A stretch of 64,000 nucleotides of DNA from Kribbella flavida DSM 17836 (GTDB taxonomy: Bacteria > Actinomycetota > Actinomycetes > Propionibacteriales > Kribbellaceae): the NCBI RefSeq assembly GCF_000024345.1, contig NC_013729.1, positions 4,402,001 to 4,466,000 of the forward strand, read 5' to 3'. The translations under genes and the position numbers were made by a program. Below, in pieces: positions 30,348 to 47,031 of this stretch. Every line of letters begins with the position of its first letter. Positions within the stretch are counted from its first letter, which is position 1. The notes beneath the pieces are model-generated. The model worked only from the letters and a program-made list of their open reading frames with translations. It was not told the DNA's origin and ran no database searches.

Positions 30348-31619
30348 TCAGTCGCGGACCACTTTGGCCAGCCGTGACACACCTTCGTCGATCTGCTCCG
30401 GATCGAGGGAGCTGCAGGCAAGCCGGAGCTGCCGGTTTCCGCCGTCGCCGAGGCTGAAGTACCGCATCGGCGTCCAGAGCACGCCGAAGTCCTCGGCCGA
30501 TCGGCGGAGCAGCTTTTCGTCGGCCGGCTTGTTCACCGACATGCGGACGAAGAACCCCCCGGCCGGCTCGTTCCAGCTCACGTCCTCGCCGTGCGGATCG
30601 CCGAGGTGCCGGCGCAGCGCTTCCAGCAGCACCCGCAGGTTGCGACGGTACAGCCCGGCCCTCCTGTCCCCGAGACGACGCATCGAACCACCGTGCTCCA
30701 GCAACAAGCCACCGATGACCGCCTGCGCGATCGGTGAGGTGTTGACGGTCAGCACGCCTTTCACCGTCGTGACGTGGTCGGCGAGCGCCGTGCCGGCGTC
30801 GGTGCTCTGGTCAGCCACCACGTAACCGAGTCGCGCACCGGGGACGCCGATCTTCGCGAAGGTTCCGATCTGGACGACCTGTTGGGTCCGGTCGAGAGCC
30901 TTCAGCGACGCGATCTCGGCGCCGGGCGGCGCGGTGAAGCGGTACGTCGTGTCCTCGAGCAACAGCACGCCCAGCCGTTCCGCCTCGGCCAGCAACTCCA
31001 GCCGGGCCGCCAGCGACATCTCCGCGCCGGTGGGATTGGCGAAGTCCGGCGCCACGACCAAGCTGCGCACGCGTCGCCCGATCCGCTCCGCCGCGGTGAC
31101 CACCGTGCGCAAGGCAGCTGCGTGCGGCCCCCGTCCGTCGTCGGGTACGCCGACCATCTCCAGACCGAGGATCCTCGCGGCTCCGTGAGCACCGGCGTAC
31201 CCGGGATCGGTCACTGCGACGACGTCGCCGCGCGCCGGATCGTGCAGCACCCGGAGCACTGCGACCAGTGCCTCCTGCGCCCCGACCGTCACCACCACCT
31301 GGTCCGGATCGACGGTGATTGCCTCGTCCGTCCGCAGCGAGGCCGCGATCATCTCGCCCAGCAGTCCACGCGTCGGTCCGTACTGGAGCAACCGGCGGCG
31401 AATCTGCCCCGGCTCCAGCCCCCGGCCCGCGAGATGCCGCTCGAAGACCGCCATGAGGCGGGCCGGGTCGACCGCCTCGAACGCCTCGTCGTGCGGCGCA
31501 CCAGGACCGAACGAGATCGCCCCGGGATAGCGGGCGGTGATCTCGTTCAGGAAGGTCATCGAGCCCAGGCGTGGATCGAGCACCGCCGCCGACAGGTCGG
31601 CGAGCGCCAGGCGACTCAT
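30348..31619 (-). CDS. hpgT: HpgT-type PLP aminotransferase (phenylglycine-forming)
   Basis: This 423-residue fold-type I aminotransferase has the PLP-lysine segment IGTFAKIGVPGARLGY. It also has a FANPTGAEMS phosphate/cofactor region, YGPTRGLLGEMIA and an AGGFFVRMSV C-terminal strand. In glycopeptide pathways HpgT converts 4-hydroxy- and 3,5-dihydroxyphenylglyoxylate to the phenylglycines, using tyrosine as amino donor. Its ATG overlaps the dpgC stop (ATGA), so it is the last gene of dpgA-dpgB-dpgC-hpgT, and this location fixes its likely substrate as 3,5-dihydroxyphenylglyoxylate. No hydroxymandelate synthase (HmaS) is present, so only Dpg, not Hpg, is expected to be made here. Confidence 0.9.
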   Translation of the reverse strand: MSRLALADLSAAVLDPRLGSMTFLNEITARYPGAISFGPGAPHDEAFEAVDPARLMAVFERHLAGRGLEPGQIRRRLLQYGPTRGLLGEMIAASLRTDEAITVDPDQVVVTVGAQEALVAVLRVLHDPARGDVVAVTDPGYAGAHGAARILGLEMVGVPDDGRGPHAAALRTVVTAAERIGRRVRSLVVAPDFANPTGAEMSLAARLELLAEAERLGVLLLEDTTYRFTAPPGAEIASLKALDRTQQVVQIGTFAKIGVPGARLGYVVADQSTDAGTALADHVTTVKGVLTVNTSPIAQAVIGGLLLEHGGSMRRLGDRRAGLYRRNLRVLLEALRRHLGDPHGEDVSWNEPAGGFFVRMSVNKPADEKLLRRSAEDFGVLWTPMRYFSLGDGGNRQLRLACSSLDPEQIDEGVSRLAKVVRD

Positions 31620-32803
31620 CGGCGCGCTGCCCGGCGGCGCATCCACGCGCGTTCGAGCGACTGGAGCACGTCCGCGCTGTACATCCGCTGGACCTGCTCG
31701 AGCGCGAACGGCGCGGCGTACCGGCGGAACGTCTCCAGTGGCTCTTCGGCCAGCCGGACCATCCGTCGGTTGGCGGTGACCGCGGACATCCGCAGCAGCT
31801 TCGCCGCCGCCGCGATCGACTCCTCGATCTGAGCCGCCGGCACCACCTCGTCGCACCAGGTCAAAGCATCGGGCCCGTTGGCCGGAAGGCGGGCACCGCC
31901 CAGCAGCAGCCGGCGGGCCTGCCTGGCCCCGACGGTCCGGGTCAGCCGCAGATTGGCCATCCCGGGAATGATGCCCTCCCGGAGCGCCGGCAGGCTGACG
32001 TAGCTGTCGTCGCAGGCGATGACGTGGTCGAACACGAGCAGCAGCTGGAACCCGCCGCCGATCGCGAAGCTGTCCACCGCCGCGATCCAGGGCTTCTCCA
32101 CCGGTTCGCCGCCGACCAGGAGGCCCCGGAAGATCTTGTTCAGGTAACCGACCTCGCGGCCGAGTACGAAGTTCACGAACGAGATCTGGCCGTGGTAGAG
32201 GTGGGTGAGGTTGATGCCGGCGCTGAAGACCCGCCGGCCGGCGTACCGCTCGTGCAGCATCACCCCGCCCCGGACGACGCCGACCTCGACCTCCTCGTCG
32301 AGCAGCACCAGATCGATCGCCGTCTCCATGTCCCGGCCGAGCCGGTCGTCCTCGGCGTTCAGGAACTCATGGTTGCCGATCGTCAGGTACGCGACCCCGT
32401 CCCACCGCTCGAGGTGCACGGTCTCCAGTTGCACCTCGCCCCGGGTCCTGAACTCCGGCAACAACCGGCGGGCCGGTTCGCTCGGCTGCAACTGGGACTC
32501 CAGCAGGTGGGTCCCGGCACGCCTGTCGGCCAGCAGGTGACTCAGCAGGATGCCCTGGTCGACCTCGTGGCCCTCCTTGTCGCCTTGCCGCCGGGTTCGC
32601 TCGGCTGCGATCTCCTCGCGGGTCGGGGCCAGGCCCGGCCACAGCTCGGCGACCGTGTAGACGATCTCGTCCAGGAACATCCGTCGGCGGTACCCGTCGG
32701 TGACCTCGTCGTAGATCCGCTCGGCCCGGTCGGCCAGAAATGCGTGGCGGGCCGCTCGGCTGCCGATCCGTCGCGGCAGGACGGACGACTCCGAGCTGGT
32801 CAC
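31616..32803 (-). CDS. dpgC: DpgC, 3,5-dihydroxyphenylacetyl-CoA dioxygenase
   Basis: This enoyl-CoA hydratase superfamily member is the cofactor-free dioxygenase that turns 3,5-dihydroxyphenylacetyl-CoA into 3,5-dihydroxyphenylglyoxylate and CoA. Typical DpgC segments are visible: VFSAGINLTHLYHGQISF, GREVGYLNKIFRGL, DSFAIGGGFQLLLVFDHVIA and PGMANLRLTRTVG. I place the start at the GTG that overlaps the dpgB stop (GTGA). This gives 395 residues, somewhat shorter than the 420-440 I remember for the family, so the start is the least certain part. An N-terminal helical region of about 100 residues precedes the hydratase-like core, as in the family. Confidence 0.93.
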   Translation of the reverse strand: MTSSESSVLPRRIGSRAARHAFLADRAERIYDEVTDGYRRRMFLDEIVYTVAELWPGLAPTREEIAAERTRRQGDKEGHEVDQGILLSHLLADRRAGTHLLESQLQPSEPARRLLPEFRTRGEVQLETVHLERWDGVAYLTIGNHEFLNAEDDRLGRDMETAIDLVLLDEEVEVGVVRGGVMLHERYAGRRVFSAGINLTHLYHGQISFVNFVLGREVGYLNKIFRGLLVGGEPVEKPWIAAVDSFAIGGGFQLLLVFDHVIACDDSYVSLPALREGIIPGMANLRLTRTVGARQARRLLLGGARLPANGPDALTWCDEVVPAAQIEESIAAAAKLLRMSAVTANRRMVRLAEEPLETFRRYAAPFALEQVQRMYSADVLQSLERAWMRRRAARR

Positions 32804-33489
32804 AGCGCGGCTCCCGACGTGCTCACGACGGGCTCCGCCTTCGGGCGGCGCAGCAGGCGGTCCGCGGCGGCGAGATGCGATCCGAGCGCCTCGTCGACAC
32901 TTGTCGCCGGAGCATCGAGCAGCAGCCGGCGCACGACCGCGAAGTCCTCGCCGCCCCCGGGTTCGATCCCGTCGAGCAGCTGCTCGGCGCGGCGCAGTGC
33001 CAGCCGGAGATCGTCCGCCAGTTCGTCGACGAGGCCCAGCGCCATGGCCTTGCTCGCGGTCAGCGGCTGCCGCCACAAAGCGAGCTGCCTCGCTCTCGCC
33101 ACGCCCAACTGACAGGCAACGCGATGCAGTACGGCGCCCGGCCAGGCCCCGCCGTTCGCGCCGAGAGCGAAGACGAAGTCCCGGGTGACGATGCGGAAGT
33201 CCGCGATGAGCAGCACCTCGGCCGCAGGCCCCGTGCATCTTCCGGATGCCACTGCGACCACCGGCGCCGGCACTCGCTCCAGGCGCCGCAGCGCGCGCTC
33301 CCACCGGTTGACCGCGGTGATCGCGACATCGCCCGGCCACGTCTGGTGGCCACCGCCAGGGTGGAGCTCGAGCACCACACCGTCGCCGCTCTCGGCGGTG
33401 GCGGTGGCTTGCTCGACGGCGGCCAGCAGATCGTCGTCGAGGGCGCTTGCACTGCCGATACTGATCAGGCCCGTACCGTGTCCTGCCAT
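32800..33489 (-). CDS. dpgB: DpgB, accessory enoyl-CoA hydratase-like protein
   Basis: This 229-residue crotonase-fold protein, with a short and diverged oxyanion-hole region (SGRCTGPAAEVLLIADFRIV), matches DpgB. In the Dpg pathway DpgB, with DpgD, helps dehydrate and aromatise the tetraketide made by DpgA and speeds DpgA turnover. GAGGTAAC precedes the ATG. It follows dpgA by 24 bp and overlaps dpgC by four bases. Without the context this weakly conserved protein would be hard to name; with dpgA and dpgC on both sides the call is firm. Confidence 0.9.
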   Translation of the reverse strand: MAGHGTGLISIGSASALDDDLLAAVEQATATAESGDGVVLELHPGGGHQTWPGDVAITAVNRWERALRRLERVPAPVVAVASGRCTGPAAEVLLIADFRIVTRDFVFALGANGGAWPGAVLHRVACQLGVARARQLALWRQPLTASKAMALGLVDELADDLRLALRRAEQLLDGIEPGGGEDFAVVRRLLLDAPATSVDEALGSHLAAADRLLRRPKAEPVVSTSGAAL

Positions 33490-33513: not shown

Positions 33514-34575
33514 TCACCAGCGGATGAGGGCGCTCTCGATGGTGGAGCCGGGCCCCATCGTCATCAGAACGCCGTGATCGCCCGGTCGGGCGACGGCTTC
33601 GTCGAGAAGCCGCTCGAAGGAGAACAGGAACGAACCACTCGACAGGTTGCCGTGGTCGCGCAGTACGCCGCTCGTGTGCCGGAGGTCGTGCGTGGTCAGG
33701 CCCAGGTTGATCTTGACCGAGTCGATCACCTTCTTGCCGCCCGAGTGCACCACCCAGTGGTCGATGTCGCGACGGTCCAGGCCGGTGTCCGCGAGCAGCC
33801 GGTCGACCACCTGGCCGGCGTGCGCGCCGACGACGTACGGCACCTGCGGGTCCAGGAAGAAGCTGAACTTGCCATGGTCGCTGTCCCAGTCGTAACGCAT
33901 CGCCGCGAGCGAGTCCGGGATCAGGCAACTGCTGTACTTCAGCACCCGGGGGCCGGCCTGCGGCCCGGGCTCCGCGTCGGCGACCACGGCCAGCGCCGCC
34001 GCGCCGTCGCCGAACAGGCTGTTGACCACCGCCGAGCGGATCGTCGAGTCGAAGACGTACGCGGCCGAGCAGACCTCGACGCACAGCAGGATCGCGATCT
34101 CACCCGGGCGCTGCACCGCACGGCCGGTCACCGCGGACAGCGCGTTCAGCCCGGCGTTGCATCCCATCCCGACGACGTCGAGACGGCCGACGTCCCAGGC
34201 GAGATCCAGCTCACGGCAGATCAGCGCGCTCAGGCCGGGGGTCAGCCAGCCCGACGACGAGACGCAACACAGGTAGCGGACGTCGTCGAGCCCGGCACCG
34301 GCCCGTTCCAGCGCCCGTCCCAGCGCCTCGACGCCCATCGCGACCCCGTCGGACCGGTGCTTGGCCAGCAGTTCGGCCTGGGTCTCGGTCTGTGGCCTGC
34401 CGTCCACGCCGTCGGCGGGCAGGTGCAGCGAGCGGCGCTCGATACCGCCGTTCAGGAAGACACCGCGGATCCTGCCGTCGGTGATGCCGTACCGGTCCAG
34501 GACGTCGGTCTGCGAGTAGGACGTCGGCTGGTTCGCGGTGCCCACTCCGACCACCTGCACCGTGTTCGTGACCAT
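33514..34575 (-). CDS. dpgA: DpgA, type III polyketide synthase
   Basis: This 353-residue chalcone-synthase-like enzyme has the catalytic Cys139 in VVGMGCNAGLN. The histidine lies in WVVHSGGKKVID and the asparagine in RDHGNLSSGSFLFS. DpgA joins four malonyl-CoA units to 3,5-dihydroxyphenylacetyl-CoA. I chose the ATG with AAAGGGG upstream; the open frame extends further but crosses the divergent promoter. It is the first gene of dpgA-dpgB-dpgC-hpgT. The 46 bp between its start and the divergent dpgD start contain a single copy of the cluster-wide palindrome, so both arms are probably controlled together. Confidence 0.95.
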   Translation of the reverse strand: MVTNTVQVVGVGTANQPTSYSQTDVLDRYGITDGRIRGVFLNGGIERRSLHLPADGVDGRPQTETQAELLAKHRSDGVAMGVEALGRALERAGAGLDDVRYLCCVSSSGWLTPGLSALICRELDLAWDVGRLDVVGMGCNAGLNALSAVTGRAVQRPGEIAILLCVEVCSAAYVFDSTIRSAVVNSLFGDGAAALAVVADAEPGPQAGPRVLKYSSCLIPDSLAAMRYDWDSDHGKFSFFLDPQVPYVVGAHAGQVVDRLLADTGLDRRDIDHWVVHSGGKKVIDSVKINLGLTTHDLRHTSGVLRDHGNLSSGSFLFSFERLLDEAVARPGDHGVLMTMGPGSTIESALIRW

Positions 34576-34604: not shown

Positions 34605-34614
34605 AACTATTGTT
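34605..34614. promoter_or_regulatory. ACTATTGT-type element in the dpgA-dpgD divergent promoter
   Basis: AACTATTGTT lies 30 bp from the dpgA start and 8 bp before the dpgD ATG. TATTGT (34608-34613) on the plus strand would put the transcription start at or next to the dpgD ATG. AATAGT on the minus strand would give a leader of about 23 bases for dpgA. The element belongs to the family found in five other intergenic regions. Confidence 0.55.
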
Positions 34615-34621
34615 ACTGTAT

Positions 34622-35434
34622 ATGACAACAAAAGTCACGGATCCTAAGGTCACACTTGACCGGCAAGGCCACGTTTCGTACCTGACGATCGATCGGCCCG
34701 CGGTGAGCAACGCGCTGGACCTCGACGCACACCGGCAACTGTGCCGGCTGCTCGACGAGTTCGAGGCGGACGACGAGCAGTGGGTGGCCGTCCTGACCGG
34801 GGCGGGAGATCGGTGCTTCTGTGCGGGCCAGGACCTGAAGGAACTGGCGGCCCGCAACCGCTCCGGAATCCAGCCGACGAGCCTGGGCAGCGGCGGCGTC
34901 TCCGGGTCGCCCCGGCTGACCGAGCGGTTCGGCCTGACCAAACCGATCGTTGCCCGCGTCAACGGTCATGCGATCGGCGGCGGACTCGAGCTGGTGCTGG
35001 CCTGCGACATCGCCGTCGCCGTCGATCACGCCACCTTCGCTCTGCCCGAGGTGAAGCTCGGACTCGTGGCCGGCGCCGGCGGGGCGATCAGGCTCCCCCG
35101 TCAGCTGCCGCCGAAGGTCGCCCTCGGCCACCTGCTCACCGGCCGGCCGATGACGGCGACCGAGGCACACCGCCACGGCCTGGTGAACGACGTCGTGGCG
35201 GCCACCGATCTCGATGCCTGCGTCGAGGCCTGGGTCACCGACCTGGTCGCCTGCTCACCGGTCGCCGTCCGGGCAGCCAAGGAGATCGCCACCAGGTCCC
35301 GTGAACTGTCCCTCGAAGAGGCGTTCGCCGCCCGGTACCCGTGGGAGGAGAAGCGGCGGACCAGCCCCGACGCCCTCGAGGGACCCGCTGCGTTCGTCGA
35401 GCGGCGAGCCCCCCGGTGGCAGAATCCTTCCTAA
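34622..35434 (+). CDS. dpgD: DpgD, enoyl-CoA hydratase-like protein of Dpg biosynthesis
   Basis: This 270-residue crotonase has the standard features: FCAGQDLKELAAR, NGHAIGGGLELVLACDIAVA and LPEVKLGLVAGAGGAIRLPR, whose glutamate is the usual base. DpgD cooperates with DpgB in dehydrating and aromatising the DpgA product. It is read away from the other Dpg genes, whereas in the glycopeptide clusters I recall the four genes run together. No Shine-Dalgarno is visible before the ATG, and a -10-like TATTGT ends eight bases upstream, which suggests a leaderless mRNA. Its TAA overlaps the stop of the convergent pabAB gene. Confidence 0.9.
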   Translation: MTTKVTDPKVTLDRQGHVSYLTIDRPAVSNALDLDAHRQLCRLLDEFEADDEQWVAVLTGAGDRCFCAGQDLKELAARNRSGIQPTSLGSGGVSGSPRLTERFGLTKPIVARVNGHAIGGGLELVLACDIAVAVDHATFALPEVKLGLVAGAGGAIRLPRQLPPKVALGHLLTGRPMTATEAHRHGLVNDVVAATDLDACVEAWVTDLVACSPVAVRAAKEIATRSRELSLEEAFAARYPWEEKRRTSPDALEGPAAFVERRAPRWQNPS

Positions 35435-37470
35435 GAGGTGGTCGTGCTGGTCAGGTCACCGGCTCCCACCTGCGCGACCCGGGTCGCGAGCAGCGCCCGG
35501 GCCTTGAGCATCATCTCGTCGTACTCGTCCTCGGGGTCCGAGCCGAGCACGATCGCGCCGCCGGCACCGATCCGCAGTTCCTGCCCGTCGTTCACGGCGG
35601 TGCGGATCACGATGCTCAGGTCGGCTCCCCCGCCGAGCCCGAGGTAACCGAGCGCGCCCGAGTAGACCCCGCGCGGTGCCTCCTCCAGCCGGTCGATGAT
35701 CTCCATCGTCCGGACCTTCGGTGCTCCGGTCATCGAACCGCCGGGGAAGCAGGCCCGCACGCACGTCACCGGGCCCACCTCCGGCCGGAGCTGCCCGCGG
35801 ATCGTGGACACCAACTGGTGAACGGTGGCGTAGCTCTCGGTCACCAGGTACTGCGGTACCTCGACCGAACCGATCTCGCAGACCCGGCCCAGGTCGTTGC
35901 GCACCAGGTCGACGATCATCAGGTTCTCGGCCCGGGTCTTGGCGGACCTGGTGAGTCCGTTGCGCAGTTCCTCGTCCTCGCCGGGATCCGACGACCTGGG
36001 CGCGGTGCCCTTGATCGGCTTGCTCTCGACCAGACCGTCCGCGGTGATCTTCAGGAACCGCTCGGGCGACGAGCTCATCACGGTCAGGTCACCGAACCGC
36101 AGGTACGCCGCGTACGGCGCAGGGTTGACGTGGCGCAGGTCCAGGTAGAAACCGAGCGGATCGGTCAACGGCGGGAAGCTGAAGTGGTTGGTCAAACAGA
36201 TCTCGTAGCTCTCCCCGCGACGGAGCTCGTCCTGACAGGCCGCGATGTCCGCGAGATAGCGCTCCCGTGTTCGATCCAGCCCTTCGCCGGACGGCTCGTT
36301 CGCTCTCACCGAGGCCGGCAACCTTCCGGCCGCGGGCAGGTGGCCCAAAGCCCGGGCGGTGGCGGTCAGCCAGTCCCGCCCCGCGCGGGCGGCGGAGTCC
36401 TCGTCCTCGGTGATCGCGACGAGGTAGGTCATCGACTCCTGGTGGTCGACGACCACCAGCCGGTCGGCGAACATCCAGGCCGCGTCCGGCGTCCGACTCC
36501 GGTGCGCGTTGGTGCCACCGGTCTCGGCCTTGAGCTCGTACCCGAAGTATCCGACGTAGCCGCCGTTCAGCTGGAAGGGCAACTCGGCCGCCGGCAGCGC
36601 GCGCTGGGCCAGCCGGCGTTCCAGCACGTCGAAGATGGTGCCCGGTTCCGACCGGACACCGGCCGCTGCGCGCACCTCGACCTCACCGTCGCCGGTGCGA
36701 TACGTCAGCACTTCGCTCAGCGGGCCGGAGCAGTCGCCGAGAAAGGAGAACCTCGCGCGCCCCGCTTCGGCCAGGCTGCTGTCCAGCCAGAAGGCGTTCG
36801 TGCTGTCGGCGTACAGAGCGCGGAAGACCTGCTCGGTGTCGGCGGTGTGCCCGAGCCGGGCCGTCTCCAGGCGCAGCGCCCGGCGGCCGTTCGCCGCGAC
36901 CAGGTCCAGGAAGTTCTGCACCAGTTGCAATCCGAGCTCGGTCGCCACCGACTCGGGATGGAACTGCACACCCCAGCGTGGCAACGTCCGGTGTCGCAGG
37001 GCCATGATGACGCCGTCTTCCGACCATGCGGTGGCCTCGACCTCGTCGGGTAGCCCGGTCACGTGCAGTGAGTGGTAGCGAACGGCGTCGAAGACCTCGG
37101 GGAACCCCGCGAACAATCCCGTACCGTCGTGGGTGATCTGGGTGATGTGCCCGTGCCGTGGATCTCCCTCCCGAACCTCGGCCCCGGCCTGGTAGGCAAT
37201 CGTCTGATGCCCGAGGCAAACACCCAGGATCGGCAGCTGCGGGAACCGCTGGAGCACCTCCCACGACCAGCCCAGGTCGGTGGCGTGCTGAGGGCGACCC
37301 GGGCCCGGTGAGATCACCACCGCGTCGTACGCGGCCGGATCGAGCCGGCTCAGGCGGGGATCGTCGTTCACCAGCACGGTCGGTTCCTGGCCGGTGGCGG
37401 CGGCGAGCAACTGGAACAGGTTGTAGGTGTAGGAGTCGTAGTTGTCGATCAGCAGCAGACGCATGCCCAT
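35431..37470 (-). CDS. pabAB: 4-amino-4-deoxychorismate synthase, fused PabA-PabB
   Basis: This is a 679-residue fusion. The glutamine amidotransferase comes first: LLIDNYDSYTYNLFQLLAA, the nucleophile in LGVCLGHQTIAYQ and HPESVATELG. The chorismate-binding domain follows, with PIKGTAPRSS, VRNDLGRVCEIGSV and PGGSMTGAPKVRTMEIID. Amidotransferase-first order and the lysine in PIKGT identify ADC synthase rather than anthranilate synthase, which has PIAGT and usually the reverse order. It makes the precursor of p-aminobenzoate or p-aminophenylalanine. No ADC lyase or CmlC/CmlD-type gene lies in the window, so the next step is external or elsewhere in the cluster. It follows the N-oxygenase with a TGATG junction. 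Confidence 0.93.
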   Translation of the reverse strand: MGMRLLLIDNYDSYTYNLFQLLAAATGQEPTVLVNDDPRLSRLDPAAYDAVVISPGPGRPQHATDLGWSWEVLQRFPQLPILGVCLGHQTIAYQAGAEVREGDPRHGHITQITHDGTGLFAGFPEVFDAVRYHSLHVTGLPDEVEATAWSEDGVIMALRHRTLPRWGVQFHPESVATELGLQLVQNFLDLVAANGRRALRLETARLGHTADTEQVFRALYADSTNAFWLDSSLAEAGRARFSFLGDCSGPLSEVLTYRTGDGEVEVRAAAGVRSEPGTIFDVLERRLAQRALPAAELPFQLNGGYVGYFGYELKAETGGTNAHRSRTPDAAWMFADRLVVVDHQESMTYLVAITEDEDSAARAGRDWLTATARALGHLPAAGRLPASVRANEPSGEGLDRTRERYLADIAACQDELRRGESYEICLTNHFSFPPLTDPLGFYLDLRHVNPAPYAAYLRFGDLTVMSSSPERFLKITADGLVESKPIKGTAPRSSDPGEDEELRNGLTRSAKTRAENLMIVDLVRNDLGRVCEIGSVEVPQYLVTESYATVHQLVSTIRGQLRPEVGPVTCVRACFPGGSMTGAPKVRTMEIIDRLEEAPRGVYSGALGYLGLGGGADLSIVIRTAVNDGQELRIGAGGAIVLGSDPEDEYDEMMLKARALLATRVAQVGAGDLTSTTTS

Positions 37471-38456
37471 CAGCCCTCCCGGCCGTCCAGTGGTGGAGTG
37501 AGCGCCCAGTCGGGCCGGTCGGGAAAGTCGAAGTCGACCTGCCCGCTCAGCCCGAGCTCGGAGACCAGTCGCTGGGTGCCGGAGTAGTCACGGACCAGCT
37601 TCGTGCCCGATCCCCCGCGCCCGACGTCGGCGACGATGTCGTCGGCCTTCGCGATGCCGGCGGTGCGCAGCTCGATCCGCAACGCCATCGGGTCCTGGAC
37701 ACCGAACGACTCCAGCGCCGGCGGCAGGCACCGGACCAGCACGTCGCGTTGTGACTGGTTCATCCGCGCGTACAGGATCTTGACCACCTCGACGATCACG
37801 GATCCGTGCGCCGACTCGTCGCGCAGATGCAGCTTGGTGATGAGCGAGTGCATCGGCTGCACCCCGGGATCGCGAGCGATCAGCCCGAGCAGTGCGTTGA
37901 TGCAGGTTTCGGCCACCGCTCCCCAGACGAGCACGGCCACGTCGCGCTGCCACTGCTCGGTCATCTCCGCGAGCACCGCTTGCAGACGACGGTAGGTGAT
38001 CAAGGTCGGCTGCTTCGGCCGCTCACCGATGCCCCGCAGGTCGCAGGTGCGGTTGACCGCCATCATGTGCATGTAGGTGTGAAAGCTCTCGTCCACGAGC
38101 GACTGCTGGACGGTCTGCTGGATGACTCGGTCGTCGCTGCCCGGAAACACCCGTTGCATCACCAGCTCGAACGCAGGGTTCGCGATCAGCGACTCGGTGG
38201 CGATCACTCGCTGGTTGTAGCCCAGCCACATGCCGGACATCACCCGGTCACGCTGCTCCGGCGTCGCGGCGAGGAAGTCCGGGTGCTCGGCGAACGGCAT
38301 GAGGTGGGCGGGGTAGTCCGGCAGCGTCGCGTCGTACTCGCCGGCCTGACCCTCGATCGCCAGGTCACGGCGGACCGCGGCACGTCGCGGCCAGGTGTCC
38401 GCCAGGCGCTTGAGGGTGGCCAGGCCGATCGTGTCCTCCCCGGCGAAGGTCGTCAT
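37470..38456 (-). CDS. AurF-like di-iron arylamine N-oxygenase
   Basis: This 328-residue protein is related to AurF and CmlI, which oxidise an aromatic amine to the hydroxylamine, nitroso or nitro group. All seven di-iron ligands can be placed: Glu88, Glu123, His126, Glu183, His210, Glu214 and His217 (segments ATESLIANP, VDESFHTYMH, AETCINALL, KLHLRDESAHGS). Their spacings equal those of the AurF ligands as I remember them (E101, E136, H139, E196, H223, E227, H230). It starts in ATGA overlap with a C-domain gene and is followed by ADC synthase, so its substrate is probably p-aminobenzoate or a related arylamine. Confidence 0.9.
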   Translation of the reverse strand: MTTFAGEDTIGLATLKRLADTWPRRAAVRRDLAIEGQAGEYDATLPDYPAHLMPFAEHPDFLAATPEQRDRVMSGMWLGYNQRVIATESLIANPAFELVMQRVFPGSDDRVIQQTVQQSLVDESFHTYMHMMAVNRTCDLRGIGERPKQPTLITYRRLQAVLAEMTEQWQRDVAVLVWGAVAETCINALLGLIARDPGVQPMHSLITKLHLRDESAHGSVIVEVVKILYARMNQSQRDVLVRCLPPALESFGVQDPMALRIELRTAGIAKADDIVADVGRGGSGTKLVRDYSGTQRLVSELGLSGQVDFDFPDRPDWALTPPLDGREG

Positions 38457-39943
38457 CGCGGCACTCCAGCCGGCGTCGGAACGTCGCGCACGAGGTCGTC
38501 CAGGCGAGCGTCGGGATCCTCGCCCACCGCCGCCAGGATCCGGACGAAGGCCTCGCTCAGCGAGCTGATCGTCTCTTCGCGGAACAGCGCCGTCCGGTAC
38601 TCGAAGCGGCCGGTCAGGGTGTCCAGCTCGTTGGCCATCACGACGGCGACGTCCATCTGCGAGACCTCCAAGGCGATCGGAACCTGGGTCAGTGCGAGGT
38701 CGTCGGCCAGCGCCTGCGGTCCAGGACCGCACTCGTTGACGTCGAACATCGTCTGGTACAGCGGATTGCGCCCGGGGTCACGGGGCGGTGCCAGGCCGCG
38801 GACCAGCTGCCCCAGCGGCAGTTCCTGGTAGTCGAGAGCGTCGCTGACGCTGTCCCGGACCTGCTCGACGAGAGCGCGGAACGTTGCCCCCGGACCGACC
38901 GCGACCCGCGTCGGTACGACGTTCAGCAATGGTCCGATCAGTTGGTCCGTGTCGGTCGATCCACGTCCTGCCACCGAGGTGCCGACCGTCAGGTCGTGCT
39001 GCCCCGTCCAGCCCGCGAGCAGTACCCGGTAGGCGGCGAACAGGACCATGAACAGCGTGGCCCCGAGCTCCCGTCCGGCGTTGTGCAGCCGGTCCGCCAC
39101 CGGGTCCGGCACCTCGAAGGCAAGCATCGCGCCGGCGAAGTCCTGTACCGCCGGCCGCGGCAGATCCGTCGGCGGATCGAAGTCGGGCGCACCGGCCAGG
39201 AGCGGCCGCCAGTGCTCGATCATCGCCTGCATCCGGTCGTCGGTGAGCTGTTCTCGCTGGTGCACGGCCAGGTCGGCGTACTGCACCGGCAGCGGCGGAA
39301 TCGGACCCGACCCGGTGGACACAGCGCGGTACGTCGCGGCGATCTCCCGGACCAGTGCGTGCAACGACTGCCCGTCGGCCACCGCGTGGTGGGCGACCCA
39401 GATCAGCTCGTGCTCCGCCTCGCTGAGCCGCACCAGGTGGACCCGGACGAGCGGTCCGCGGCGCACCGCGAACGGTTCGTGGACCGCCGCCGCCACCGCC
39501 TGCTCGAGTGCTTCGGCACGCTCCGGCTCGGGCAGGGAACTAAGGTCCGTCACCGCAACCTCAGTACCGCCCGCCGGCGTGATGCTCTGCACGGTCCGGC
39601 CGTCGACGAGCTCGAGGTGCGTCCGGAGAGCCTCGTGCCGGGTGGTGACGCGATCGATCGTCGCGCCGAACTTCCCGACGTCGAGGGGACCACTGATCCT
39701 CGCCCGCAGCGGGATGTTGTACGCCGCACTTTCCGGGTGCAGCAGATGCAGGAACAGCAGCTGCTCCTGGAAGTACGACGCCGACGGCGGCTCGCGATCT
39801 CGGACTGCCCGCCGGATGAGCGGCGCAGCCGAGCCCGGCGCCGACGGTGCCGGCCCGACCCCGGCCTGGCACCGTAACCGCCCCACCGCTTCCCGCCGCA
39901 GCTCCGGCGACAGCTTCACCAGCTGCGACAACTGACTCGTCAT
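38453..39943 (-). CDS. Stand-alone NRPS condensation domain
   Basis: This 496-residue C domain has an intact HHAVADG at 185-191, plus SYFQEQLLFLHLLHPESAAYN, RHEALRTHL, GTSVAGR and NPLYQTMFDV. The preceding 50 residues (MTSQLSQLVKLSPELRREAV and onward) look like a docking or linker helix. It overlaps the exporter gene upstream and the N-oxygenase gene downstream by four bases each. The NRPS in the same operon has a Cy domain but no normal C domain, so this protein may pass its product to the next PCP of the assembly line. Confidence 0.93.
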   Translation of the reverse strand: MTSQLSQLVKLSPELRREAVGRLRCQAGVGPAPSAPGSAAPLIRRAVRDREPPSASYFQEQLLFLHLLHPESAAYNIPLRARISGPLDVGKFGATIDRVTTRHEALRTHLELVDGRTVQSITPAGGTEVAVTDLSSLPEPERAEALEQAVAAAVHEPFAVRRGPLVRVHLVRLSEAEHELIWVAHHAVADGQSLHALVREIAATYRAVSTGSGPIPPLPVQYADLAVHQREQLTDDRMQAMIEHWRPLLAGAPDFDPPTDLPRPAVQDFAGAMLAFEVPDPVADRLHNAGRELGATLFMVLFAAYRVLLAGWTGQHDLTVGTSVAGRGSTDTDQLIGPLLNVVPTRVAVGPGATFRALVEQVRDSVSDALDYQELPLGQLVRGLAPPRDPGRNPLYQTMFDVNECGPGPQALADDLALTQVPIALEVSQMDVAVVMANELDTLTGRFEYRTALFREETISSLSEAFVRILAAVGEDPDARLDDLVRDVPTPAGVPR

Positions 39944-41277
39944 CGCGCCGGCTGCTTCTCGGTCTCGCCCGCACTCTCGGCCGGGTCAACCGTTTCTCCG
40001 GCGGCCGGTTCAGCCGCTTCCTCCGCGGCCGGTGCGGCCGGCTCGTTGCCGGGGTGCTGACGGATCGAGCGGACGGGGCTCAACGCGACGAGGATCGCCA
40101 CGACGATGATCAGGCCACCCGCCGCGCCGATGGTCGCGCGCACGCCGAGTGCCGCACCGATCGTGCCGCCGAGCGCCGCACCCAGCGCGCCGCTGCCGTG
40201 CACCACTGACATCGCCGTACCGCCGACCCTGCCGAGCAGCTCGAACGGTGTGATGCCGGCGACCAGGCTGAGCACGTGGATGTTGTACGTCGAGTTCGCC
40301 AGGCCGGCCACGAACTGGCTGAACATCAGCACCACGAACGCGGCGGACACCGGACTGGTCGCGAGCACGATGCTGGACGCACCGGATGCGGCGATGGTCA
40401 CGACCAGGGCAGTGCTGAGCGACAGCTTCTCCGCGAGCTTGGCCGCAGTGCTCGCCCCGACCAGCAGGCCGACGCCTCCACACCCGAACGCGATACCGAC
40501 CTGCAGCGGGCTCAGCCCGGCGATCTGGTAGGCGTAGACCAGGACGAGCGCGCTGGCCGCGGCACCACCGAGGTTGAGCACACCGGTCGCCGTCATCAGT
40601 GTCCGCAGCCGGCCGTCGCCGCCGATGGTGGTGAAGCCGATCTTCAGGTCGGCCAGCACAGCGCCCGGCTTCTGGCCCGACGCCGTCCGGACCTCTTCAC
40701 GATCCCGGACCAGCAGGACCGAGACGGCCGACACCAAGAAGGTGACGGCGTCGACGACAACGGCCACGACCGCACCGAGCAGCTGCAGGAGGCCACCACC
40801 CAGAGCCGCGCCGCCGACGTCCGCGGCGGACCTGGTGAAGGACATCTTGCTGTTCGCCTCGACGATGTGCTCGCGCCCGACCAGGTGTGGGATGTACGAC
40901 TGGTACGCGACGTCGAAGAAGACCGTGAGCACACCGTTGACGGCAGCAACGATCATCAAGTGGGTCAGGGTCAGCTGGCCGGCGAGGTGGGCCAGCGGAA
41001 GGCTCAGCAGCGAGAGCAGCCGGCCGACGTCGGCGACGACCAGCAGCGGACGGCGCGCGACCCGGTCCGCGAGCAGGCCCGCGAACGGCCCGAGCAGCAG
41101 GTACGGCAGGACGCCGAAGGCGGCCAGCAGACCGACCTGGAAGGTGGTCGCGTCGAGGGTGAGCAGCGCCAGGGTCGGCAGCGCGATCCGCGAGATGCGG
41201 TCCCCGAAACTGCTCAGGCTCTGCCCGAACCACAACCGCTTGAAGTCGGAGTGACTCCACAACTGTCCTGTCAGCAT
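39940..41277 (-). CDS. Major facilitator superfamily exporter
   Basis: This 445-residue membrane protein has about twelve hydrophobic segments and the MFS loop motif GPFAGLLADRVARRPLLVVAD. It is of the EntS-like type that often exports siderophores and nonribosomal peptides. The C-terminal 45 residues are a soluble tail very rich in Glu, Ala and Pro. I chose the ATG preceded by AAAGGA; it overlaps the end of the NRPS gene by 7 bp. Position in an NRPS operon makes export of the product, and self-resistance, the likely role. Confidence 0.9.
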   Translation of the reverse strand: MLTGQLWSHSDFKRLWFGQSLSSFGDRISRIALPTLALLTLDATTFQVGLLAAFGVLPYLLLGPFAGLLADRVARRPLLVVADVGRLLSLLSLPLAHLAGQLTLTHLMIVAAVNGVLTVFFDVAYQSYIPHLVGREHIVEANSKMSFTRSAADVGGAALGGGLLQLLGAVVAVVVDAVTFLVSAVSVLLVRDREEVRTASGQKPGAVLADLKIGFTTIGGDGRLRTLMTATGVLNLGGAAASALVLVYAYQIAGLSPLQVGIAFGCGGVGLLVGASTAAKLAEKLSLSTALVVTIAASGASSIVLATSPVSAAFVVLMFSQFVAGLANSTYNIHVLSLVAGITPFELLGRVGGTAMSVVHGSGALGAALGGTIGAALGVRATIGAAGGLIIVVAILVALSPVRSIRQHPGNEPAAPAAEEAAEPAAGETVDPAESAGETEKQPAR

Positions 41278-44200
41278 GTCGATGTGTCCTTTTCTGTGGT
41301 GGGGACGGTCTCGTTCCATCCGTCCGTGCCGGGTTCCAGCAGGGCCGTCGCCAGGGCTTCCACCTCGGGGCGGCAGATCGGGTCGGCGAGCACCGCGCTC
41401 ACCACGGCCTCGACGGTGCGGGCGGTGAACAGCTGCTGGATCGAGAGCTGCGGCCCGAGAATCTCCGCCAGGAGCGTGACCAGCCGGACGGCGGTGAGCG
41501 AGTTCCCGCCCAGCACGAAGAAGTCGTCGCTCAGTCCGGCCTGCTCGCGCCCGAGTACCTCCGCGAACAGCGCGCAGATCACCTGCTCGACGGGGGTGAC
41601 CGCGGGAACGAACTCCGGTACCGGCGCGACCGTCTCCCCCGCGGCGCCCTTGATCAGTGCCAGCCGGTCGACCTTCGCGTTCCGGGTCAGCGGCAGCTCG
41701 TCGAGGACCGTGATCCGGTGCGGCAGCATGTACCCCGGAAGGATCCCTGTCAGGTGCTCCCGCAACCGGTCCAGATCACCGGTCTGCCCCGTGGCCCAGA
41801 CGACGTACGCGTGCAGGAACGACTCGCCCGGTGTGCCCCCGGCGACGACGACCGCGGTGTCGACCCCGGGGCACGAGCGGACCGCGGCCTCGACCTCGCC
41901 CAGCTCGATCCGCACGCCACGGATCTTCACCTGGAAGTCCTCACGACCGAGGATCTCGATGTTTCCGTCCGGCAGGTACCGGCCGAGATCGCCGGAGGCG
42001 TACGCGCGGCCGCCGCTCGGCAACTCGACGAACTTGCGTGCGGTGAGCTCCGGGTCACCCCAGTAGCCCTGCGCGAGGCCGACCTCGCTCGCGGTGTAGA
42101 TCTCGCCGGGCACCCAGGTCGGCCGGTGCGACAGGTCCGCAGCGAGCACGTGATAGCGCTGGTTGGCCATCGGCTTGCCGTACGGGATGCTCGTCCACTC
42201 CGGGTCGACCTCGTCGATCGGGTAGATGACCGACCAGATGCAGGTCTCGGCCGGGCCGCCGGACGAGATCACCGACGTCCGCGGGTTCAGCGCCCGGATC
42301 CGGTCGGGCAGCGGCAGCGGGATCCAGTCACCGGCCAGGACCACGGTGCGCAGCGGTGCGAACGCCTCGGGCGTGCCGGCGGCCTCCGCCTCGGACACTG
42401 CCATCTCCATCAGCGTCGGGACCGAGTTCCAGAACGTGACACCGGCCTTCTTCATCAGTTCCAGCCAGTGCGGCGGAAACGGCATCGGGCCCGGTACGGC
42501 GACCGCGCCGCCGACCTGAGTCATCCCGAACACGTCGTACACCGAGAGGTCGAAGTGCAAGGGCGACACCGCGAAGCAGCGATCGTCCGGCCCGACGCGG
42601 AAACGGAGATTCGCCTCCACGATCGTGTTGAGTGCTCCCCGGTGGTCGACCATGACGCCCTTCGGCGTACCGGTCGAGCCGGAGGTGAAGATCACGTACG
42701 CGAGATCGGCCGGCTGCTGCACAGGCTCGAGCGGCTGCGCGTCACCGTCCTCGAGATCGCGGTCGACGCAGACGACCCGCACGTGCGCCGGCCACTGCGC
42801 CCCGTCGACCAGCGCGGAATGCGTCACCACGAGCTCGATCTCTGCCTGGTCGACCAGCCGGTGCAGCCGCTCGACCGGCCAGGCGGCGTCCATCGGCAGG
42901 TACGCCGCTCCGGAGGCGAGAATGCCGTGCGCCGCCGCGATCTGCTGCCAGCCCTTGTCGAGATGGATCGCGACCAACCGGTTCGGTACGGCGCCCGCGG
43001 CCCTCAGCAGCCGCCCGAGGCGGTTGACGGTGACGTCGAGCTCGGCGTAGCTGATCGTGCGTTCGAGCGTGATGACCGCCGGCGCATCCGGCGTACGTCG
43101 TGCATGCTCGGCCAGCGGAGTGTGCAGGTACGACGGACCGGACAACGTCTTCCGGGCGGCGTTGTTGATCTCGTCGCGCTGGGTCCGTTGCCACTGCGGC
43201 AGCAGAGCGGGTGGTTCGTCCTCCCAGTGACGCTCGTCGGACAACAGCCAGCGGACCAGGCCCCGATGGGCCTCGAACATGTCGTCCAGCATCCCGTCCG
43301 GGTACAGCGCGTCGAGGCTGTCCCAGTTGTAGGTCAGCGCGCCGTTGTCCTCCCAGATCTGGAAGTCGATCGACACCTGCGGGGTCTGGGAGATCGAGTA
43401 CACCGACTCGCCGATCGCGGTCGCCGTACGCCGGGGCGGCTGGCCGAGCAGGCTGGTGACGACGACCGGGAAGGACGCCCGGACCCGGTCGCGCTCGCGG
43501 GCCGCCAGTTCGCGCATCACCTGGATGCCGCCGAAGTGCCGGTGCTCCAGGTCCTCCCACATCCGTTGCTGCACGGCCCGCGCTCGCCCGGCGAACGAGC
43601 CACCGGTGGGCTCGACCGCGAGCAGCGACGTGGTGGTGAAGTCCCCGACGATGTCGTGCACCTGGGGGTGCACGGGCAGCCGGTTGAACAACGGGCAGTT
43701 GATCGTGAAGCGGTCGCTCTTGCTCCAGGTCCGCAGCACTTCGGCGAACGTGGTGATCAGCAGACAGGTCGGCGTCACACCGCGGCGGTTCGCCTGCTGC
43801 TGCAGCAGGGTCCACTCGTCCGGCTCGAGGCGGTCGGCGCGACGGCTGAACGTGGGCGCGGCCTCCGCCCGCGACGCGGTCAGGGGCAGGTCAGGTGCCG
43901 GGGGCAACGCGTCGATCCGGTCCAGCCAATAGGTTCGCGAGGCCTCGTAGGCCGGCGAGTCCGTGAGCGCGCCGTCGGTCCCGAGCACGTAGTCACGAAA
44001 GGTCAGCTCCAACGGTTCCAGCTCGAGTCCCGGGTCCTCGTAGAAGAGCACGAGTTCCGGGATCAGCAGCTGGACGTAGCTCCAGGCGTCGCAGATCAGC
44101 AGGTCGAAGCTGAGATGCAGCCGGACCTGTCCCTCGGGCAGGTGTGTCACCCGTACGTCGAAGAACGGCCACTCGTCGACGCTGAACACGTGATGGGCCA

Positions 44201-46973
44201 GCCGTTCGCGCAGCTCACCGGCGATGCGCTCGGCGTCCTCGGGTGCGTGCTCGCTGAGGTCGAGCACCTCGACCTCGTACGGCGGCGGATCGGCGAGCAC
44301 CTGTTGAGTGCCGTCCGGCAGCATCACCAGCCGCAACGCCTCGTGCCGCTGGACGAGCCGGTCCCAGGCCAGCTTGAGGCGGTTGCTGTCGAGGTCGTCG
44401 CTCTGCCACTCGAAGTAGCCATGGCATCCGACGTTGCCCAGCTCGACCGCGTCACCACGCCCGATCCAGTAGGCGTACTGCGTATCGGTCAGCGGGAACG
44501 GGCTGTGCCGGGCGGCGGGGTCGGAAACGACCACCGGAAGGTCGCCACGGCCTTCGCCGTCCGATCGGCCACCCGCCGCGAGGATCTCCGCAACGCCGGC
44601 GACGGTACCTGCGGAGTACAGCTCGTGCAGACCGACCGTCGTACCGAATGCGTCACGCAGCCGCGACGTGACGTCGATGGCCGCCAGCGAGTGACCGCCG
44701 AGCTCGAGGAAGAGGTCGTCGACTCCGACCTTGTCCACCCCGAGGACGTCCGCCCAGATGCCGGCCACCGTCCGCTCGGTCTCGGTGCGGGGAGCCACGT
44801 ACGGGCGTTCGACGGTCGTCGGTGCGACCGGCAGCGATTTCCGGTCGAGCTTGCCGTTGGTGAGCCGCGGGAGCGCCTCCAGCAGCACCAGCGACGTGGG
44901 AACCATGTACGCCGGCAGCAGCCGGCCGAGTTCCTCCTTGATCCGGGCTGCGATGCCCGGACCGGTGCCCGGTTCCGCCACGACGTACCCGATCAGGGTG
45001 ACCTCACCGGTCGCGTCGGGCCGCGCCGCGACGGCGGCTTCGCGAACCTCCGTCAGCGACTCCAGAGCACTCTCGACCGCTTCCGGTTCGACCCGGAAAC
45101 CACGGACCTTCGTCTGCAGATCGGCGCGACCGACCATCTCGACGAGTCCGTCGGCCCGGAAGCGGGCCAGGTCGCCGGTGCGATACAACAGCTCGTCGGC
45201 CTCCTCGGCGACGGAGTGCCGGACGAAACGCTCGCTGGTGAGCTCGGGCTTGCCGAGGTAGCCGAGCGCGAGACCGGCGCCGGCGATGTGGAGCTCACCG
45301 ATGACTCCGGTCGGGACCGGGTGTCCGGCCTCGTCGAGCAGGTACGCGCGGGTGTTCGCGATCGGTTTGCCGACCGGGAGCGGCGTGCGCCGGCGCGCGT
45401 GCGCCGGCAGTCCCTTGGACGTCGCACGCAGGCCCGTGGCGACGTTCAGGCAGGACGTGGTCACCAAGGTCTCGGTGGTGGCATGGAACACGACGGGCTC
45501 GAACGGCACGTCGGCTGGTGCCCACCGGCGGACCGGTGCACCGGTCGCGAACAGGTACCTCAGCGGGACGTCCTCGGACGGCCAGGTCAACCACCACAGG
45601 CGCTCGGCCATCGGGGCCACCAGCACTGCGACGGTGATCCGTTCGGCCAGGATCCAGTCTCGCAGGGCCTGCGGCGATCCGGCCGTGTCGGGAGCCGCGA
45701 CGCACACCGTCACTCCGAGGCCGAGCAGCGTGATCCATTCCTGGGCCGCGATGGCGAAGCCGGGCGACGAGGCCCAGGCGGCTCGATCGCCGGTGGAGAT
45801 TCCGTACGCGGTTCGGCTCCATTCGACCATGTTGGCGAAGGCGCGGTGCCGGATCAGCACACCTTTCGGTTCGCCGGTCGAGCCCGACGTGTAGAACACC
45901 ACGCCCGCCTCGTCCGAGACGGCACCGCCGTCGAGACGCGGCGAGGTGTCGGGGTCGTCCACACACAGCGCGACCACCGCGTGGTGCGCGGCCAGACGGT
46001 GCCACAAGGACCTCCGGGTGATGACTCCGGCGACCGCCGCGTCGTCCAGCACGGCGGTCAACCTGGCATCAGGGTTCTCCGGATCGAGCAGCACGGCAGT
46101 GGCCCCGGCGCGGACGACCGCGAGGAACCCGATGATGCACTCGGCGGACCGCTCGATCAGTACCGCGACGCGGGCACCGCGGCGCAGACCTGCCTGCTGC
46201 AGCATGGCGGCCAGCGCGGTCGCGTCCCGGTCGAGCTCGCCGTAGGTCCAGCGGCGCGGACCGGCCTCGATCGCCACGATGTCCGGATCCTGCTGCGCCT
46301 GCTCGTGCACGAGGTCGGCGATGGTGACGTCGTCCCGATAGGCGGCCGACGTGTCGTTCCAGTCCACCAGGAGCCGGCTGCGCTCATCGGCGGGCAGCAG
46401 CTGCAGTCGCCGTACCGACTCGTAGGGGTCGTGCAACGCCGAGATGAGCAAGGCGACGAACTGGGCGGCGATCCGGGACGCTGCCTCGGCGGAGAAGCCG
46501 GCCGTCCGGTAGTTCACGGCCGCTCCTTCGGAGGTGACGCTGAGCACCAGCTCCGCCGGAACCGCGCCGGCGGTGACTCCGTCCTCGCAGACACCGGCGG
46601 AGAACAGCGCGATGTCACCGGGAATCAGTAGCGGTTCGGGCGGTCCTGCCGCCGCATCCACGACCTGCCGGAAGCTGACGCCGTCGACGAAATCGAACGA
46701 CAGGCAGCCGGTAGCTTCCCCCGAACCGGTGACGAGGGCGAGGGCCGGAGCTCCGCTGTACCGATGCATCAGGGCCGCCCAGGCCGCCCTGAGCGTCGGC
46801 TGCGGCCCAGCCGGACCGCCGGTGATCGAGGCGGTCAGCTCAGCCGCTTGCTCGAGCAACCCGCCGGGCAGCGGTACCTCGACGGCGGCCACCGCGGTGG
46901 CCGCCCCGGCGTCCCCACCGTCGGCGGGAAGCTCGATGCGCAGGGCTTCCTGCCCGGTCTGCGTTGTGTCCAT
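41271..46973 (-). CDS. NRPS with partial C, atypical A, PCP, heterocyclization (Cy), A and PCP domains
   Basis: This is a 1900-residue protein. Residues 1-205 resemble only the C-terminal half of a C domain, with no HHxxxDG. A1 (about 210-720) keeps YTSGSTGEPKG, YRTG and NGKLDRKSL, but the residue aligned with Asp235 of GrsA is Ala407 and the A5 motif reads HATTETL instead of YGPTE. That suggests a substrate without an alpha-amino group. PCP1 has LGGHS (Ser762). A Cy domain (about 825-1260) carries DLLICDAWS at 957-965, matching DxxxxDxxS. A2 reads D-L-Y-N-V-A-S-I-W, close to the cysteine signature D-L-Y-N-L-S-L-I-W. PCP2 has LGGNS. No oxidase is inserted, so a thiazoline is expected. AGGAG precedes the ATG; it is first in an operon with exporter, C domain, N-oxygenase and ADC synthase. 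Confidence 0.93.
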   Translation of the reverse strand: MDTTQTGQEALRIELPADGGDAGAATAVAAVEVPLPGGLLEQAAELTASITGGPAGPQPTLRAAWAALMHRYSGAPALALVTGSGEATGCLSFDFVDGVSFRQVVDAAAGPPEPLLIPGDIALFSAGVCEDGVTAGAVPAELVLSVTSEGAAVNYRTAGFSAEAASRIAAQFVALLISALHDPYESVRRLQLLPADERSRLLVDWNDTSAAYRDDVTIADLVHEQAQQDPDIVAIEAGPRRWTYGELDRDATALAAMLQQAGLRRGARVAVLIERSAECIIGFLAVVRAGATAVLLDPENPDARLTAVLDDAAVAGVITRRSLWHRLAAHHAVVALCVDDPDTSPRLDGGAVSDEAGVVFYTSGSTGEPKGVLIRHRAFANMVEWSRTAYGISTGDRAAWASSPGFAIAAQEWITLLGLGVTVCVAAPDTAGSPQALRDWILAERITVAVLVAPMAERLWWLTWPSEDVPLRYLFATGAPVRRWAPADVPFEPVVFHATTETLVTTSCLNVATGLRATSKGLPAHARRRTPLPVGKPIANTRAYLLDEAGHPVPTGVIGELHIAGAGLALGYLGKPELTSERFVRHSVAEEADELLYRTGDLARFRADGLVEMVGRADLQTKVRGFRVEPEAVESALESLTEVREAAVAARPDATGEVTLIGYVVAEPGTGPGIAARIKEELGRLLPAYMVPTSLVLLEALPRLTNGKLDRKSLPVAPTTVERPYVAPRTETERTVAGIWADVLGVDKVGVDDLFLELGGHSLAAIDVTSRLRDAFGTTVGLHELYSAGTVAGVAEILAAGGRSDGEGRGDLPVVVSDPAARHSPFPLTDTQYAYWIGRGDAVELGNVGCHGYFEWQSDDLDSNRLKLAWDRLVQRHEALRLVMLPDGTQQVLADPPPYEVEVLDLSEHAPEDAERIAGELRERLAHHVFSVDEWPFFDVRVTHLPEGQVRLHLSFDLLICDAWSYVQLLIPELVLFYEDPGLELEPLELTFRDYVLGTDGALTDSPAYEASRTYWLDRIDALPPAPDLPLTASRAEAAPTFSRRADRLEPDEWTLLQQQANRRGVTPTCLLITTFAEVLRTWSKSDRFTINCPLFNRLPVHPQVHDIVGDFTTTSLLAVEPTGGSFAGRARAVQQRMWEDLEHRHFGGIQVMRELAARERDRVRASFPVVVTSLLGQPPRRTATAIGESVYSISQTPQVSIDFQIWEDNGALTYNWDSLDALYPDGMLDDMFEAHRGLVRWLLSDERHWEDEPPALLPQWQRTQRDEINNAARKTLSGPSYLHTPLAEHARRTPDAPAVITLERTISYAELDVTVNRLGRLLRAAGAVPNRLVAIHLDKGWQQIAAAHGILASGAAYLPMDAAWPVERLHRLVDQAEIELVVTHSALVDGAQWPAHVRVVCVDRDLEDGDAQPLEPVQQPADLAYVIFTSGSTGTPKGVMVDHRGALNTIVEANLRFRVGPDDRCFAVSPLHFDLSVYDVFGMTQVGGAVAVPGPMPFPPHWLELMKKAGVTFWNSVPTLMEMAVSEAEAAGTPEAFAPLRTVVLAGDWIPLPLPDRIRALNPRTSVISSGGPAETCIWSVIYPIDEVDPEWTSIPYGKPMANQRYHVLAADLSHRPTWVPGEIYTASEVGLAQGYWGDPELTARKFVELPSGGRAYASGDLGRYLPDGNIEILGREDFQVKIRGVRIELGEVEAAVRSCPGVDTAVVVAGGTPGESFLHAYVVWATGQTGDLDRLREHLTGILPGYMLPHRITVLDELPLTRNAKVDRLALIKGAAGETVAPVPEFVPAVTPVEQVICALFAEVLGREQAGLSDDFFVLGGNSLTAVRLVTLLAEILGPQLSIQQLFTARTVEAVVSAVLADPICRPEVEALATALLEPGTDGWNETVPTTEKDTSTC

Positions 46974-47031
46974 GATCTGCGCTCCTGCGTCGGCCGGATC
47001 CGTGCACTGACGCCGAGCCTAACCAAATCAT

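Follow-up and report, generated by a model that had tools for sequence, protein, structure and literature searches.

The pyochelin and yersiniabactin synthetases use a heterocyclisation (Cy) domain to join a loaded aryl acid to cysteine in a 2-aryl-thiazoline ring; the aryl acid is salicylate, and a DhbE-type adenylation (A) domain loads it. In aureothin-type pathways the acid is used by a polyketide synthase and a separate ligase, unlike the nonribosomal peptide synthetase (NRPS) considered here, whereas the supply of the starter is alike: an AurF-type N-oxygenase and a fused 4-amino-4-deoxychorismate (ADC) synthase, a pair that we also see in Embleya. The albicidin, cystobactamid and lapcin clusters carry a dedicated aminobenzoate synthesis gene. 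Cystobactamid biosynthesis combines a p-aminobenzoate-type NRPS starter with a dedicated N-oxygenase, CysR, to give a p-nitrobenzoyl end, and differs from the present locus in being myxobacterial and in having another p-aminobenzoate (pABA), not cysteine, as the unit after the starter (PMC7966384). Module 1 of its synthetase CysK takes pABA and refuses p-nitrobenzoate (pNBA) (PMC7966384). In lapcin, a pABA A domain (AD4) is followed by two Cy-cysteine modules (AD5 and AD6) that bring the aryl carboxyl into a thiazole, as might happen here, but its aminobenzoate follows three amino acids and so has an internal position (PMC8837603). The lapcin product was predicted and synthesised, not isolated, and the term AurF is absent from that account (PMC8837603).

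In this study, we analyse a window of 64,000 nucleotides, positions 4,402,001-4,466,000 of contig NC_013729.1 of Kribbella flavida DSM 17836. A sequence-only reading of this stretch of DNA from a soil bacterium had proposed that an operon makes an N-oxidised aminobenzoyl-thiazoline starter unit, with pyochelin and yersiniabactin as precedents. The Cy domains of PchE, Irp2 and HMWP2 do match that of K. flavida, but the first A domain (A1) resembles amino-acid A domains, and cystobactamid and lapcin are the closer precedents. Each part of the proposed pathway is known; the combination of an N-oxygenase, an aryl-acid start and then a Cy-cysteine module in an actinomycete was not found among the papers listed in searches of open-access literature, nor was the cluster itself, and to judge from the genes the combination looks new. 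Kribbellichelin was considered as the product and rejected, since its building blocks, as given in the accessible part of its description, differ (PMC9962454).

Organisation and conservation of the operon

Five genes on the minus strand form a run joined by stop/start overlaps:

41271..46973, minus strand: NRPS of 1900 residues, C remnant-A1-PCP-Cy-A2-PCP (single open frame; Pfam; K. soli orthologue)
39940..41277, minus strand: predicted MFS exporter (Pfam; start taken as the ATG overlapping the NRPS stop, ATGCTGA)
38453..39943, minus strand: free-standing condensation (C) domain with HHAVADG (Pfam; motif)
37470..38456, minus strand: AurF-type p-aminobenzoate N-oxygenase (Pfam, NCBIfam, PDB match, iron ligands)
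35431..37470, minus strand: fused ADC synthase (PabA-PabB) with a PIKGT motif (Pfam, NCBIfam, PDB match)

The four overlapping junctions read ATGCTGA, ATGA, ATGA and TGATG and the gene order is the same in Kribbella soli, both of which support the earlier view that these genes are co-transcribed. A scan of 35300-47400 for sigma-70 promoters and terminators returned none where chance alone predicts 0.5 and 2.5, respectively, and is uninformative. Of 33 window proteins compared by tblastn, 31 are present in K. soli, in order and at 76-93% identity; one of these matches is cut by a contig end, beyond which the two missing genes would fall. Because the genes overlap, pABA synthesis and N-oxidation appear tied to the NRPS and the free-standing C domain.

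The cluster is rare within the genomes searched, as few matches were found in the genus, the order or the species scan: a full-length copy of the NRPS occurs in 2 of 38 genomes of the genus and the AurF protein (E ≤1e-40) in 2 of 391 sampled genomes of the order. A pattern scan of a collection of 84,980 species, made with AurF only, returned besides K. flavida itself only K. soli (92%) and Actinocatenispora rupis (61%), and the phylum sample of 396 gave the own genome and one 32% match. Rhodococcus and Burkholderia plasmid matches to AurF lie at 32-33% identity. In A. rupis the homologue is matched in two reading frames (locus 10001-10934) beside a RimK-type ATP-grasp gene, and none of the other 32 window proteins is found nearby. 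A locus of Embleya sp. NBC_00888 (20001-31635) carries an AurF homologue (62.5%) and an ADC synthase (60%) that flank an ORF of 2050 residues; the ADC synthase scores over the pabB cut-off, in a profile check that covered this one protein of the locus. The same Embleya stretch, which has no annotated feature in its record, includes a P450-like part in an aureothin-like arrangement.

Supply of the aryl acid

The AurF-like identity of the N-oxygenase is borne out by 64% identity to AurF over 314 aligned residues and by conservation of all seven iron ligands, together with Tyr93 and Arg302, at what we take to be the AurF positions. In AurF, Arg302 binds the free carboxylate. The protein scores 132 bits against PF11583 (cut-off 30) and 515 bits against NF045603, "4-aminobenzoate N-oxygenase", an NCBI model of the type "exception" whose cut-off of 620 it does not reach. 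Its best PDB match is AurF itself, at 457 bits, as against 159 bits for 5hyg, presumably CmlI, and on these scores a CmlI-like action on a bound amine was dropped as the first choice.

The ADC synthase assignment likewise holds: the protein is a PabA-PabB fusion that scores 359 bits against TIGR00553 (pabB, cut-off 328), its best PDB match is an ADC synthase (8hx6), and it keeps the Lys of the PIKGT motif that marks this role. The operon thereby includes a dedicated aminobenzoate synthesis gene, a trait of p-aminobenzoate NRPS systems. No ADC lyase lies in the window, in agreement with the earlier reading: none of the five Aminotran_4 genes of the genome falls inside. The search for pabC elsewhere in the genome that this reading had called for gave one candidate by position, at 6,304,586-6,305,257, which starts 23 bases behind a second pabB (452 residues as read; 351 bits, cut-off 328) on the same strand; its match to the ADC-lyase models is weak (53 bits, cut-off 273), a "hypothetical protein" subfamily scoring slightly better (55 bits). 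The NCBIfam comparison covered two of the five Aminotran_4 proteins, and the lyase could be another of the five.

ADC may also have other fates, as in the chloramphenicol pathway, where it leads to p-aminophenylalanine. This fate was dropped on the weak evidence that CM_2 has no match in the genome (the control was found in 13 of 14). The search may have missed a chorismate mutase: a Phe/Tyr prototroph should need one, which weakens the negative result, and a diverged enzyme or one of another family is possible.

Architecture of the NRPS

Pfam recognises two AMP-binding, two PP-binding and one Condensation domain in the NRPS, whose K. soli orthologue is 85% identical across residues 1-1900. 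Its parts are as follows:

46359..46973, minus strand: C-domain remnant, residues 1-205, without HHxxxD (weak profile match; dN/dS 0.47)
44829..46349, minus strand: A1, residues 209-715, code AIQVFT(F/P)VTK, Asp235 replaced by Ala (motifs, alignment to GrsA)
44574..44786, minus strand: PCP1, residues 730-800, LGGHSL (motif; Pfam)
43164..44471, minus strand: Cy heterocyclisation domain, residues 835-1270, DLLICDAWS (motif; PDB matches)
41649..43127, minus strand: A2, residues 1283-1775, code DLYNVASIWK, cysteine-like (code from alignment)
41379..41606, minus strand: PCP2, residues 1790-1865, LGGNSL (motif; Pfam)

The half C domain seen earlier at the start of the NRPS is real but weak. Pfam marks no Condensation stretch at this N-terminal remnant, while a profile made from the six C domains of the window matched second-half blocks (195-268 and 383-433 of 436) within residues 1-212, at 25.9 bits and an E-value, from a three-sequence set, of 7e-10. 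Measured against K. soli, dN/dS is 0.47 in the remnant and 0.13-0.19 in the other five domains (0.17 each for A1 and A2).

The Cy assignment is supported by its motif, DLLICDAWS, which begins at residue 957, and by its PDB matches, the eight best of 15 being Cy-containing proteins throughout: 6lta (FmoA3), EpoB, Irp2, bacillamide synthetase (three), HMWP2 and PchE. This DxxxxDxxS motif and the cysteine-like A domain adjoin an acyl-loading module, an arrangement that fits an aryl-thiazoline assembly line. The description of A2 as cysteine-like survives with a reservation, as its code, DLYNVASIWK, departs at positions 299, 301 and 322 from the cysteine code, DLYN-L/M-S-L/M-IWK. Its closest PDB match, like that of Cy, is 6lta. 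This is FmoA3, an enzyme that uses alpha-methyl-L-serine and in which a small Ala at position 236 makes room for the methyl group (PMC11253843).

The first adenylation domain

In both alignments to GrsA, A1 has Ala in place of Asp235, as first read from the sequence. The resulting code is AIQVFTPVTK or AIQVFTFVTK, position 322 depending on the alignment, and its ten residues are identical in K. soli. The A5 motif HATTETL is also present, although its His is not conserved, the K. soli orthologue reading YATTETL. The ATP-binding and A10 motifs are kept (YTSGSTGEPKG, YRTGD, NGKLDRK). Six of the seven A domains detected in the window have Asp235, A1 being the exception; across 39 A-type domain matches from the window and the searched loci, which include overlapping loci and orthologues and are not independent, position 235 holds Asp in 34, Ala in two (A1 and its orthologue) and Val, Glu and His in one each, the His belonging to an AMP-ligase-like ORF in Embleya. 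Within the window, A1 would thus be the one detected A domain that fits an acid without an alpha-amine. The earlier reading had taken the loss of Asp235 as the sign of an aryl-acid domain; the residue does set A1 apart from its neighbours, but its loss alone is no proof, since McyG has Val at this position and yet is not an aryl-acid A domain (PMC11253843).

DhbE-type domains have the A5 motif QQVxFMAEGL (PMC11253843), from which the VVFHATTETL of A1 differs, so that by this motif A1 falls outside the DhbE type. Among the best 60 of 235 and the best 60 of 239 PDB matches of A1, none is a chain under the name DhbE, EntE or BasE; those listed are mainly amino-acid A domains, with NpsA, an A domain for 3-hydroxyanthranilate (PMC11253843), at rank 36 among the best 60. 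For p-nitrobenzoate or p-aminobenzoate, the aryl-acid section of a review of A domains names no structure (PMC11253843). The code positions of A1 hold no acidic residue. A1 shares Ala235 and Lys517 with AVKYVANDAK, the code of p-aminobenzoate A domains, whose position 330 is Asp; the open-access literature searched did not yield this code in print.

Outside K. soli, A1 reaches at most about 40% identity to anything among the matches listed, so that no characterised close relative backs a substrate for it. None of the 395 other sampled genomes of the phylum gave a relative at E ≤1e-110 (best three candidates per genome scored), and all matches in 260 plasmid records fall below 60% identity, the best of 30 listed being 39.5%. 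In the genomes and plasmids searched, close relatives of A1 are confined to the two species of Kribbella. An AlphaFold model shows the A-domain fold, nearest to modules of LgrA, EntF and PvdL, but near the A5 portion of the pocket (residues 271-288 and 292-328) pLDDT is below 50, and the model therefore says nothing about the pocket.

The surrounding cluster

A set of genes for 3,5-dihydroxyphenylglycine, missing from the earlier reading, adjoins the operon at 30348-35434:

34622..35434, plus strand: DpgD-type enoyl-CoA hydratase (NF042430 414 bits, cut-off 400; start chosen within ORF 34538-35434)
33514..34575, minus strand: DpgA, 3,5-dihydroxyphenylacetyl-CoA synthase (NF042429 588 bits, cut-off 425)
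32800..33489, minus strand: DpgB-like member of the enoyl-CoA hydratase family (PF00378 36 bits, cut-off 27; named DpgB by position)
31616..32803, minus strand: DpgC-like dioxygenase, start approximate (NF042432 491 bits, below the cut-off of 530; score taken with an ORF longer than the gene)
30348..31631, minus strand: class I/II aminotransferase, start approximate (Pfam, NCBIfam)

The position of the aminotransferase suggests that it probably converts the glyoxylate to 3,5-dihydroxyphenylglycine. We estimate the whole cluster at about 54 kb, comprising the Dpg genes, seven A domains and a fragmented NRPS. A TE-A-T protein and an A-T-reductase also belong to it, as does a short MbtH-like ORF recognised by its motif. 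Within 2896-6280, 6290-9958, 11044-12462 and 24094-27432 there are two C-A-T proteins without HHxxxD in the C domain, as well as free-standing C domains with HHAIFDG and HHVAIDE and a C-T protein with HHIVWDA. Because the motif is lost from the two C-A-T proteins while the free-standing C domains and the C-T protein keep it, condensation in the cluster may take place in trans. The code DVFDFGGVTK is common to an A domain that stands alone and to the one in a C-A-T protein (1364-2900 and 24094-27432), which may mean that a single unusual monomer is loaded at two points.

Two adjacent acyl-CoA dehydrogenase-like genes lie at 21783-24097, between an NRPS module and the A-T-reductase, and one of them weakly resembles RedW, an L-prolyl-PCP dehydrogenase (100 bits, cut-off 650). 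At 27288-28966, a BtrH_N protein stands beside an ORF of 225 residues without a Pfam or NCBIfam match, both kept in K. soli. The right edge (50436-54903) holds a sulfotransferase, a PPTase, an APS kinase, a member of the PAPS reductase family and CysN-like genes, perhaps a supply of PAPS for a sulfated product.

Proposed pathway and alternatives

From the enzyme families and the gene order established above we propose a route; which acid is loaded, whether it is oxidised before or after loading, what ring forms and all that follows downstream are inferred. The ADC synthase would convert chorismate to 4-amino-4-deoxychorismate, from which pABA would be released by an ADC lyase whose gene lies in another part of the genome. 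The AurF-type diiron enzyme would oxidise the amine of pABA, most likely to pNBA, and A1 would activate the aryl acid and load it onto PCP1, with pNBA slightly favoured over pABA. Cy would then condense the aryl acid with cysteine held on A2/PCP2 and close the ring to a 2-aryl-thiazoline-4-carbonyl thioester, which the free-standing C domain of the operon would hand on to a subsequent module, perhaps one that loads dihydroxyphenylglycine; the MFS protein would export the product.

The loading of pNBA or pABA by A1, followed by heterocyclisation with a cysteine-like residue, is the simplest account, because the genes overlap and A1 is the only fit detected, and we consider it probable. The components on which the earlier pABA-derived aryl-thiazoline proposal was built, namely the enzyme identities, the operon, the unusual A1 and the pairing of Cy with a cysteine-like A2, are all found in the sequence. 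The profile caught an AMP-ligase-like ORF elsewhere, so it would probably have picked up any separate aryl ligase in the window. As to which acid A1 takes, the sequence is ambiguous between pNBA and pABA. The nitro acid is favoured by the close AurF relative, in which the carboxylate-binding Arg302 is kept, and by the lack of an acidic residue in the A1 code where the p-aminobenzoate code has Asp330. The full version of this reading, in which A1 activates pNBA directly, the product carries a 2-(4-nitrophenyl)thiazoline and the free-standing C domain hands it over to dihydroxyphenylglycine, is put forward tentatively, at somewhat less than an even chance. The same observations weigh against a second version, counted within the probability of the simplest account, in which A1 loads unoxidised pABA and N-oxidation by the AurF-type enzyme comes afterwards, on the product while carrier-bound or once released, in the manner proposed for CysR. 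This version draws on cystobactamid, where CysK module 1 accepts pABA derivatives and not pNBA and where deletion of cysR gives an N-terminal amine (PMC7966384). We think it rather unlikely, though a serious contender.

One point against loading of either benzoate by A1 is that the neighbouring dihydroxyphenylglycine genes would supply another acid without an alpha-amine. A1 might load 3,5-dihydroxyphenylglyoxylate or 3,5-dihydroxyphenylacetate from the Dpg enzymes, with pABA entering elsewhere; keto-acid A domains lack Asp235, and the DpgA, DpgD and DpgC-like genes directly adjoin the operon. That A domains for keto acids exist is documented (PMC11253843). An aminotransferase follows dpgC, however, so that the keto acid probably becomes an amino acid for a domain with Asp235; the Dpg genes also stand outside the overlapping five-gene run, and no other aryl-acid loader was detected in the window, which together make this alternative distinctly improbable. 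Still less credit goes to an inactive A1, with PCP1 loaded in trans or skipped: the A5 motif has diverged, the C remnant ahead of A1 evolves faster than the rest and the motif is gone from two further C domains of the cluster, but the ATP-binding and A10 motifs of A1 are intact, its dN/dS is low and its code is the same in both species. Whatever A1 takes, A2 might load serine, alpha-methylserine or another non-cysteine residue and so give an oxazoline. FmoA3, which heads the PDB matches of A2 and of Cy alike, has Val299 and Ser322 in common with A2 in the alignment, while A2 has Leu236 where FmoA3 has its small Ala, keeps DLYN..IWK, and is accompanied by no hydroxymethyltransferase among the annotated window genes. 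We regard the oxazoline as improbable and, because A2 is without the small Ala that FmoA3 needs for alpha-methylserine, retain cysteine as the most likely substrate.

Implications

If the assembly line is indeed primed with p-nitrobenzoate, A1 would represent a new type of aryl-acid A domain, one derived from amino-acid A domains and separate from the DhbE type.
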